A DNA stretch of 34,419 nucleotides from Candidatus Woesebacteria bacterium RIFCSPHIGHO2_02_FULL_42_20 (GTDB taxonomy: Bacteria > Patescibacteriota > Microgenomatia > UBA8517): assembly GCA_001792535.1 (NCBI GenBank), contig MGGS01000004.1, positions 1-34,419 of the forward strand. The letters run 5' to 3'. The translations under genes were made by a program, and so were the position numbers. The notes beneath the pieces are model-generated. The model was not told the DNA's origin. It searched no databases and saw nothing but the letters and a program-made list of their open reading frames with translations. Of the stretch, positions 786 to 4,145 are shown piece after piece. The stretch's first letter is position 1. Each line of letters starts with the position of its first letter.

Positions 786-1658
786 TCAGACTTGGCAATT
801 AGGGCAAACATACGTACCGCGGCCGGAGAGGAAATACTTGGTAAATTTTACACCTATCTGTCGGCAGGCAGGTCGCGGACATAGCGTGCCTTCTTTTCCA
901 TAAGCCAATGTGTAATTTTGGTAACTCCCTTCTTGACCGTCGGGAGTCACAAAAGCTAACTCACTCGCACCTCCGTACTTTACCCCCTCTTTCAAAACTT
1001 GGTGTATTGCACCATATAACTTCTTTATTTCCTCGTTTCCTAATTTCTTACTTTCTTTTTTAGGGTTTATTCCTGCCAACCAGAGCGCGTCGTTAGCATA
1101 AATATTGCCTACCCCACCCATTTTGGACTGATCCATTAACACCACTTTGACAGCTCTTTTTGTTTTTGCCAAAACTCCCTGAAAATACTCATAAGTAAAA
1201 GGTTTACCCTGAGCGGAGCCGAAAGGCTCCGGGCCAAGCTTGCCTACAAAACCAGACGTTTCCACCTCGGCAGTTTTGATGACTTTTATCCAGCCAAACC
1301 GCCGCACGTCGTTATAGTACAAAAAGCCGCCATGATCTAGCTTAAAAATTACGTGAGTGTGCTTGCCTGGAACTCCACCCGTCACTTTTTGGGATATGGT
1401 TGAAACTTTAGGTAAATTCGGGCCTCGATAAATGAGTTGTCCAGTCAGCTTTATATGAATTACGATCGAGTATCCACTCGAAAGATCAATCGCTAGTACT
1501 TTTGCAAAACGGCGAATACTTTTGATTTTAGCGTTTAGAACTTTATCTTTCTCTAGTTCGTATTTCGGATTTCGGATTTCGATATTAATTATTTTATGTC
1601 CCACCAGATATTTCTGGAGCTGTAACTTAATACTTTCTACTTCTGGCAATTCCGGCAT
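786..1658 (-). CDS. mutM: Formamidopyrimidine-DNA glycosylase
   Basis: N-terminus MPELPEVESIKLQL (start moved to the MPELPE Met), QSKMGGVGNIYANDALW, C-terminal zinc finger region CPRPAC…CPNCQ. Confidence 0.93.
   Translation of the reverse strand: MPELPEVESIKLQLQKYLVGHKIINIEIRNPKYELEKDKVLNAKIKSIRRFAKVLAIDLSSGYSIVIHIKLTGQLIYRGPNLPKVSTISQKVTGGVPGKHTHVIFKLDHGGFLYYNDVRRFGWIKVIKTAEVETSGFVGKLGPEPFGSAQGKPFTYEYFQGVLAKTKRAVKVVLMDQSKMGGVGNIYANDALWLAGINPKKESKKLGNEEIKKLYGAIHQVLKEGVKYGGASELAFVTPDGQEGSYQNYTLAYGKEGTLCPRPACRQIGVKFTKYFLSGRGTYVCPNCQV
854..873 (-). repeat. Family A palindromic element in mutM
   Basis: CCTGCCTGCCGACAGATAGG (minus strand), 19/20 identical to 3731-3750. Confidence 0.7.
1198..1226 (-). 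repeat. Family B element in mutM
   Basis: Minus strand CCTTTCGGCTCCGCTCAGGGTAAACCTTT: 24-bp period with CCTTT duplicated. Confidence 0.6.
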
Positions 1659-1720
1659 ACATCCGATTATTGCAGATTTGGACACTGATTTCACTGGTTT
1701 AAAGACTAATTGCTAAAAGA

Positions 1721-2095: not shown

Positions 2096-3192
2096 ATTTT
2101 AGTTGAGATAAAATCTTTTATCTCCTTTTCAAACCTCTCCTTTGAAAATTTTTGGGCTTGAGTAACACAGTCAGACGATTTGATTTCCAAAGTGTCAAAC
2201 TGTTTTATTGCGCGAGTAAGACTTTTAACTGATAATTCATTAAAAAATACACCTGTCTTTTTGTCGACCACCGTCTCCTTTACCCCCCCTGATTTATAGG
2301 CAATTACTGGAGTTCCTGATGCCATGACTTCGACCGGAGTAATGCCGAAATCTTCTGATTCTGAACAAGATATATATGCTTTTGCTTGTCCCATCGATTC
2401 CCGCTTTTTTTCTTCCGCTATTTCTCCCAAAAACTCCACAGTTGGCCCTGCAAAACTTTTTAGTTCTTTTTTATACCCTGCAAAACTTTTGCCAAAGACT
2501 TTTAGTGGCAAATTCAGTTTTGTGCAAGCAGCAACGGCCAAGTCAAAGCGTTTGTTTCTCGCCAAACGTCCCCCGGTAAGGTAATAGTTACCCTTCTTTG
2601 TTGTATGTTCTTTGTTGTATGTTCTGACATCAACCGGTGGGTAAATTACTTGCGAGTCGCGGCCATAAAACCTCTTAATACGATAGGCAACCTCTTTTGA
2701 GTTGGCAATATAATAGTCAACATTTTTTGAGGCCAAGAAATCCAGCTTTCTACCAAGGACTATGAACAATGAACCAATTACTTTCAGTATTCCCCTATTC
2801 CAGTTTCTCGCAGTCTTGTATCCGTAAATATAGCGCGGCGGGGTATGGCAGTAACAGATCAACTTGGCACGGCCTTTATTTACAAAATTTGGGAAATATG
2901 CACCTGTTGCCGAGGTAATCACGACGTCATATCCGTCAAAATTCATGAGCTTAAAAATCAAGGGCGAAATCATAGTAATCGGACCGATAAGTTTTTGTTT
3001 AAATGGCAAAAATTGCAACTTTGAAGGCCTTATGTCAGCATCGTTAAATTTGCCACGATTTGGACCGAGATACTCAGGCAGATAAACAGTAGTATAAATA
3101 GGCGCCTGGGGAAACATTTCATGAAGTGTCCCTAAGACTCCCTCTGCCCCGCCGTATTCTTTTAAATAATCATGTACTAAAGCTACTCTCAT
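2092..3192 (-). CDS. Glycosyltransferase family 4 (group 1)
   Basis: MRVALVHDYLKEYGGAEGVLGTLHEMFP … EDFGITPVEVMASGTPVIAYKSGGVKETV. Confidence 0.9.
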   Translation of the reverse strand: MRVALVHDYLKEYGGAEGVLGTLHEMFPQAPIYTTVYLPEYLGPNRGKFNDADIRPSKLQFLPFKQKLIGPITMISPLIFKLMNFDGYDVVITSATGAYFPNFVNKGRAKLICYCHTPPRYIYGYKTARNWNRGILKVIGSLFIVLGRKLDFLASKNVDYYIANSKEVAYRIKRFYGRDSQVIYPPVDVRTYNKEHTTKKGNYYLTGGRLARNKRFDLAVAACTKLNLPLKVFGKSFAGYKKELKSFAGPTVEFLGEIAEEKKRESMGQAKAYISCSESEDFGITPVEVMASGTPVIAYKSGGVKETVVDKKTGVFFNELSVKSLTRAIKQFDTLEIKSSDCVTQAQKFSKERFEKEIKDFISTKI

Positions 3193-4145
3193 ATCAGCTC
3201 CATCTGTTTTTCTTTTTTAAACCTTTCCCCCACTTCCTTGGCTCTTCGAGTCAATGTCATAAAGCCAAATTCAGCAAACGTTTCCAGCACATTCTGGCCA
3301 TCCAGTTGCCAGCGGGACATTTCGTCAGCACTAAATTCTATCGGAACGTTCCTAACAATTCTGGCAAGCTTCAAAGACAACTCACCACTTTTTCTTCCAT
3401 TGATAAGTTTTTTTCTCACGGATTCTTTGACATCATCCAGATATTTGTAAATGTTCTCGAATCTTTTGTATTTAGCAAGAAGTCTCTCAGCAGTCCTGGG
3501 GCCAATTCCGGGAACTCCAGGATAATTATCGGACTGGTCCCCCACCAAAGCTTTATAGTCAACAATCCTCTCCGGAGTGACACCCATTTTTTCAACCACT
3601 CCACTTCTGTCGTAAACTTTGCCTTCCGACAAACCCTTCGTAGGCAAATAAACACCGACTCTTTCATCGACAAGCTGTAAAATGTCACGGTCACCGGTAA
3701 CGATGACTACGTCAGTAATTAGTGATTTGCCCTGCCTGCCGACAGGTAGGTGATGACTAGTGATTTGTAAAGAGATTGTACCAATGATATCGTCGGCTTC
3801 AAAACCGGCCTTGGAATAAACCGGGATTTTCATCGCTTCAAAGACTGCCTGTGCTTTTTCAAACTGCGAGCTTAATTCTCGGTCCATTTCCGGCCGATGA
3901 GCTTGGTAGGCTTTAAACTCCTTGTGTCTGAATGTCGGCTCTTTGCGGTCAAAAGCAACGGCGATGTGGGTAGGTTTAAAGTCAGTAATAATTTTGAGAA
4001 GCATTGAAACAAGGCCGTAAACAGCGTTAATAGGCTCTCCGCCTCGCGTGGTCAAGGGAGGAAGAGCGTGATACGCCCGATGCATTATGGCATTGCCGTC
4101 AATAAGAACTAACTTTACTTGTCCTGAGCTTGCCGAAGGGTCCAT
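3189..4145 (-). CDS. 5'-3' exonuclease (PolA N-terminal domain type, no polymerase domain)
   Basis: VKLVLIDGNAIMHRAYHALPPL, GFEADDIIGTIS, VIVTGDRDILQLV, DQSDNYPGVPGIGPRTAERLL. Confidence 0.9.
   Translation of the reverse strand: MDPSASSGQVKLVLIDGNAIMHRAYHALPPLTTRGGEPINAVYGLVSMLLKIITDFKPTHIAVAFDRKEPTFRHKEFKAYQAHRPEMDRELSSQFEKAQAVFEAMKIPVYSKAGFEADDIIGTISLQITSHHLPVGRQGKSLITDVVIVTGDRDILQLVDERVGVYLPTKGLSEGKVYDRSGVVEKMGVTPERIVDYKALVGDQSDNYPGVPGIGPRTAERLLAKYKRFENIYKYLDDVKESVRKKLINGRKSGELSLKLARIVRNVPIEFSADEMSRWQLDGQNVLETFAEFGFMTLTRRAKEVGERFKKEKQMELI
3731..3750 (+). repeat. Family A palindromic element in exonuclease gene
   Basis: CCTGCCTGCCGACAGGTAGG; flanked by TAGTGATTTG direct repeats (3720-3729, 3758-3767). 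Confidence 0.7.
4118..4143 (-). repeat. Family B element immediately after the exonuclease start codon
   Basis: Minus strand GGACCCTTCGGCAAGCTCAGGACAAG. Confidence 0.65.

Follow-up and report, generated by a model that had tools for sequence, protein, structure and literature searches.

An in-frame palindromic repeat at the second cysteine position of the MutM finger in Microgenomates bacteria

Can a short dispersed repeat become part of the metal-binding site of an enzyme? The question is raised by the mutM (fpg) gene of an ultra-small Woesebacteria-type bacterium, in which an earlier note on the same DNA had recognised a 20-nucleotide palindrome, Family A, within the sequence encoding the zinc finger. 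We have analysed the window (the whole stretch of 34,419 nucleotides, from contig 4 of a 1.08 Mb genome that is 98% complete) together with relatives, those that carry names being Woesebacteria and Levybacteria of the Microgenomates group, known from metagenome-assembled genomes.

The MutM protein and its finger

The protein encoded by mutM exceeds the cut-offs of two NCBIfam equivalog profiles, TIGR00577 fpg (218.7 bits vs 203.3) and PRK01103 (222.8 vs 212), and contains the Pfam domains H2TH and Fapy_DNA_glyco; its start is probably the MPELPE at 1658. Homologues are present in 44 of the 50 genomes of the family to which the host belongs (f1) and in 12 of the 14 genomes of a second family (f15). 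Invariant columns of the alignment include P2, E3, K53, N185 and R280 (among them the N-terminal Pro-Glu, a conserved Lys and the finger Arg), as well as the first, third and fourth Cys of the finger, and both the reading frame and the catalytic residues of the window MutM are intact despite the repeat. In Fpg enzymes the finger Arg, the one absolutely conserved Arg that the finger provides, contacts DNA phosphates (PMC9266487). The positions of these features are given in Table 1.

Table 1. Features of mutM and copies of the repeats, by position in the window
Feature	Position	Strand	Remarks
mutM (fpg), 8-oxoguanine / formamidopyrimidine DNA glycosylase	786..1694	minus	NCBIfam and Pfam profiles, homologues
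Fourth finger Cys (residue 288)	795..797	minus	native, invariant
Third finger Cys (residue 285)	804..806	minus	native, invariant
Finger Arg (residue 280, GRGT)	819..821	minus	kept; invariant column
Family A copy in mutM, CCTGCCTGCCGACAGATAGG	853..872	minus	in frame as PACRQIG (phase 0); pattern search and translation
Second finger Cys (TGC of the element, residue 265 counted from MPELPE)	864..866	minus	native Cys2 column; alignment
First finger Cys (TGT, residue 260)	879..881	minus	native, invariant
Second, different repeat, CCTTTCGGCTCCGCTCAGGG	1208..1227	minus	inserts FGSAQGKP in the GPEP loop of MutM
Other Family A copy, CCTGCCTGCCGACAGGTAGG	3731..3750	plus	inside a 5'-3' exonuclease gene (3189-4145, minus); LPVGRQ, phase 2

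The consensus of the Family A repeat is a perfect, uninterrupted palindrome of 20 nt, CCTGCCTGCCGGCAGGCAGG. The mutM copy agrees with it at 17 of 20 positions, three having diverged, and differs by a single base from the other copy in the window (19/20, just as the earlier note had counted). That note had placed the element at 848-886; an element is indeed present there, although it is narrower than this interval. Six sites occur in the source genome at <=2 mismatches. A chance match of the palindrome can be ruled out, as dinucleotide shuffles of the window gave no match to the element in 100 trials and the reversed pattern, used as a control, has no match anywhere in the source genome.

Translation of mutM reproduces exactly the finger that had been read from the sequence beforehand, ...YGKEGTLCPRPACRQIGVKFTKYFLSGRGTYVCPNCQV (C-P-R-P-A-C-R-Q-I-G-V-K), in which the first pair of Cys residues has the spacing C-x4-C and the second pair C-x2-C. 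In fold, finger position and conserved Arg this finger resembles both the Cys4 beta-ribbon fingers of Fpg/MutM enzymes and the zincless fingers of NEIL1 and plant FPG; it differs from the known Fpg fingers, where both pairs are C-x2-C, in its first pair and in drawing the second Cys from a repeat. The TGC concerned is the third codon of the element and aligns to the native Cys2 column, which bears out the proposal that the element itself supplies the second Cys and thereby the CxxxxC spacing. The idea of an insertion into the finger holds in so far as the palindrome is present in frame, but nothing was simply added in front of the native Cys2 segment, which has been replaced: compared with homologues reading C-x2-C-H-K the finger is longer by about 4 codons net, the seven codons of the element standing in place of the native Cys2 and of the one or two residues that follow. 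A net gain of only about four codons points to replacement rather than simple addition.

An AlphaFold model of the window MutM, based on a 41-row alignment, has a mean pLDDT of 94.6 (about 96 in the finger) and superimposes on the Fpg structure 1r2y with a Z score of 33.4 over 266 residues (rmsd 2.3), solved Fpg structures giving about 30-33. A short helix is predicted at residues 263-267 (PACRQ) that is absent from the model of an insert-free sister, G002. Both the sequence and the model would allow the finger to bind zinc.

Relatives with and without the repeat

The C-x4-C spacing was sought in relatives without the repeat and is absent from all 41 aligned homologues of this kind, which have either plain C-x2-C or, in some members of f15, no second Cys. 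Within the aligned set, every f1 homologue without the repeat is C-x2-C and keeps Cys2. An ancestral C-x4-C spacing is thus ruled out, and the attribution of the spacing to the repeat stands.

To identify carriers, we searched 373 genomes of the class for the element followed, after a gap of 24-48 bases, by the GRGT hairpin, without regard to frame. Four genomes were found (with no control matches), each from a different genus: the window genome (G000) and G037 in f1, and G123 and G141 in f15. In all four, PACRQ[A/I]G stands immediately after C-x-x and in an identical codon register. The MutM of G037 is 58% identical to that of the window; its gene has the 20-mer in perfect form and in this register, resulting in CQNPACRQAGAKIEK. 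Beyond the class, no carrier was found with a looser pattern in 379 genomes of the phylum, which is weak evidence because the remaining three carriers were missing from this evenly drawn sample.

For two of the carriers, a sister from the same genus is free of the element. G038, from the genus of G037, reads CQTCGTKIEK, whilst G158, from the genus of G123, reads CLREDGGIIHK and has neither element nor Cys2. The GGII of G158 is retained in G123, which is most simply explained by entry of the element into a finger already without Cys2; judging from these sequences, the finger of G123 seems to have acquired a Cys not present in that of its sister. The second Cys is absent from five f15 mutM loci (L062, L064, L066, L067 and L068), in which CxR is followed by xDGG or GDG (CxR[EDGN]DGG fingers). 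Fingers of this type suggest a three-Cys or zincless finger in those Microgenomates, and the Cys of the element may therefore not matter there.

The repeat in other genes

Family A is found in 18 of the 50 f1 genomes, with no control matches and with up to ~12 sites per genome, and at the loci that we retrieved most sites lie within long frames. G037 and G038 contain about 12 sites each, whereas there are relatives that have none. Insertion is evident from orthologue pairs of G037 and G038 with filled and empty sites, with net gains of 12 to 21 nt and a clean 21-nt difference in several; examples are EF-G-like, TypA-like, MiaA-like and RNase J-like genes, named from their translations alone. 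In a putative recF (named by motif) the element, read as LPAGRD, occupies an identical site in two genera (G037, L182, and G023, L197), and the site is empty, by a clean 21 nt, in G038 (L183), of the same genus as G037. A regular target duplication was not seen at the insertion sites. Variable lengths and the want of such a duplication would fit an imprecise process better than a classic transposase. The one flank resembling a duplication lies in the window, where identical 10-bp direct repeats, TAGTGATTTG, stand on either side of the exonuclease copy (3720-3729 and 3758-3767). In G038 (contig C6, L126, 12213-12301) a gene of 421 codons holds a pair of Family A elements separated by 69 bases, neither of which is present in its G037 orthologue.

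The reading frame in which the element is used distinguishes mutM from the other genes. Our survey covered 78 distinct sites, 38 of them internal to frames of at least 180 aa; moving the G141 mutM copy off an antisense frame and dropping the overlapping duplicate at L126 left four sites in mutM and 33 elsewhere. All four mutM sites are in phase 0, the Cys-bearing frame (PACRQAG), as against one of the other 33, of which 30 are in phase 2 (LPAGRQ, free of Cys) and two, both in recF, in phase 1. An exact test gives p about 7e-5 for this difference (one cell held 33 instead of 32, with negligible effect), in a sample that is not random, some sites having been gathered by a search in which TGY had to stand nine bases before the element. 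Across the 373 genomes, TGY precedes the element by nine bases in about 36 places, a few of which had no locus; the four mutM copies are the only ones in a metal-binding finger at the loci that were read. To that extent, C-x2-PAC inserts in further zinc fingers are ruled out.

Of the known repeats, those that come closest are the palindromic elements of Rickettsia and Wolbachia, which have inserted in frame into conserved protein genes of bacteria with small genomes and leave these frames unbroken; in the biotin ligase gene, two types of element are reported to have inserted in the same region (PMC3767692, PMC2229807). Family A is likewise palindromic and in frame in conserved genes of small genomes, with empty orthologues, although we claim no relation by descent. 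Rickettsia elements (RPE) measure 100-150 bp (PMC3767692), whereas the repeat here has 20 nt and a net gain of up to 21 nt, and owing to this difference in length we do not class it as an RPE. REP sequences, described in PMC3733652 as short (20-40 bp) dispersed palindromes of bacteria, are similar in size; they are extragenic by name and most are tagged at one end with GTAG or CGTC, whereas Family A is mostly genic and its consensus has neither tag. In the literature searched we found no description of the element sequence or of PACRQAG, nor of such repeats in CPR bacteria. No RPE is known to supply a metal ligand.

Origin and role of the insert

Probably, in our judgement, the coding palindrome has been incorporated into the MutM finger, where it supplies Cys2, this being the reading that the evidence supports best. 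A short dispersed palindrome, mobile or copied by some route, would insert in frame into genes of these small genomes and be read there as coding sequence, the insertion being imprecise and yielding net gains of 12 to 21 nt. In mutM it would have inserted beside Cys1 of the zinc knuckle, where its PACRQ-x-G reading took over the native Cys2 segment. Selection would purge most insertions and, in the MutM finger, retain those whose frame supplies a Cys; this Cys would bind zinc, and the repeat would thereby belong to a metal site that still functions. We infer that the repeat is 'selfish' (that is, self-spreading), as the earlier note had it, and its 'rewriting of a metal-binding site' is to be taken in the same way. 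More tentative, and falling somewhat short of an even chance, is the wider proposal that the repeat has repeatedly and independently given a putative zinc-ligand Cys to the same MutM finger in Microgenomates, and in G123 has restored a four-Cys site. If true, a repeat would have been domesticated convergently, at the resolution of a single residue.

In-frame palindromes of Rickettsia and Wolbachia are usually regarded as tolerated passengers. Here, a repeat takes over the position of a conserved metal ligand, with one particular frame being used and several lineages affected separately, which offers a modest case, open to testing, in which repeat DNA would have joined the metal site of an enzyme. 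That the same change has come about several times makes the finding more interesting than the earlier note first stated. It also points to a coding-palindrome system in the core genes of Microgenomates that we have not found described in the literature searched.

How surprising is the recurrence? Extrapolation from the TGY count gives very roughly ~530 element sites in the 373 class genomes. The number of hits expected at one codon is then 0.002 if all codons are open, 0.17 if 1% of the genome is tolerant and 1.7 if 0.1% is tolerant, a rough estimate for a mutM site picked after the fact, so that four hits at the same codon need surprise only where insertion is tolerated at more than a very few sites. 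Recurrence at one codon speaks for a strong filter, target preference, or both. Under target preference, a short similarity (e.g. TGC or GGCAGG) would make the Cys codon of mutM and the recF loop hot spots whatever the selection on the protein, an effect that could act together with the selective retention proposed above. It would account for one mutM codon being hit in four genera and one recF site in two, and the native Cys2 segment is precisely what was replaced in the carriers. However, the native mutM sites (TGY-CAY/AAR-AAR) match the element in the TGY codon only, G158 has no Cys codon at the site, and no clear motif is apparent by eye in the bases beside other copies; we think target preference rather improbable, if deserving of weight.

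Alternatively, the element might be a neutral hitch-hiker that inserts anywhere, the finger loop being a rare tolerant spot, zinc dispensable and the Cys incidental, in a protein on its way towards a NEIL1-like zincless finger. The conserved Arg and the existence of zincless versions in the superfamily (PMC9266487) make loss of zinc a rival to be reckoned with, and it would sit well with the f15 proteins that have no Cys2 at all and with the same-site insertion in recF, which affects an ordinary loop with no metal site. Against this, all four mutM copies use the Cys-bearing frame that is rare elsewhere, the three remaining Cys residues and the finger Arg are invariant, and not one f1 non-carrier has given up Cys2. 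We therefore consider the hitch-hiker unlikely and continue to favour a repeat that was recruited into the finger.

Both readings, like target preference, differ from one in which the insert arose once, or in which an allele was passed around, either through horizontal transfer or through gene conversion at the 3' end of mutM. The shared register and near-identical element of all four carriers would be expected in that case, and short conversion tracts between lineages are hard to see. To examine this, we built a maximum-likelihood tree of 45 MutM proteins from which the insert columns and those of the second repeat had been removed. The tree requires four changes for the four carriers, forced by well-supported branches, and rejects a single carrier clade (p-AU 1.8e-50); it cannot separate gain from loss, but a single gain would require many losses. 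On the gene tree, then, a single origin of the insert is ruled out. In addition, the same-genus sisters G038 and G158 are without the element, and the codons flanking it match each carrier's own clade (e.g. AAATTTACCAAGTAT in G000 and AAAATTGAGAAATTC in G037), which argues against transfer of the finger. One insertion or a transferred allele is accordingly very improbable. Last, although the assemblies are drafts, those of the named relatives from metagenomes, and repeats can cause misjoins, an assembly or binning artefact can practically be dismissed: the 20-nt repeat is shorter than a read, the insertion is contig-internal and in frame in four separate assemblies, and the window copy is unique in sequence, lying three positions off the consensus.

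Two further observations concern mutM and its surroundings. Inserts like the second repeat of the window MutM, CCTTTCGGCTCCGCTCAGGG, are found in the mutM genes of G015, G002 and G018 (tandem), with related ones in G030, G031 and G033, and the sequence occurs in nine places in the source genome at <=1 mismatch. Beside mutM, within 94-784, lie genes for a ribbon-helix-helix protein (94-378) and a PIN-domain protein (371-784), likely a type II toxin-antitoxin pair.
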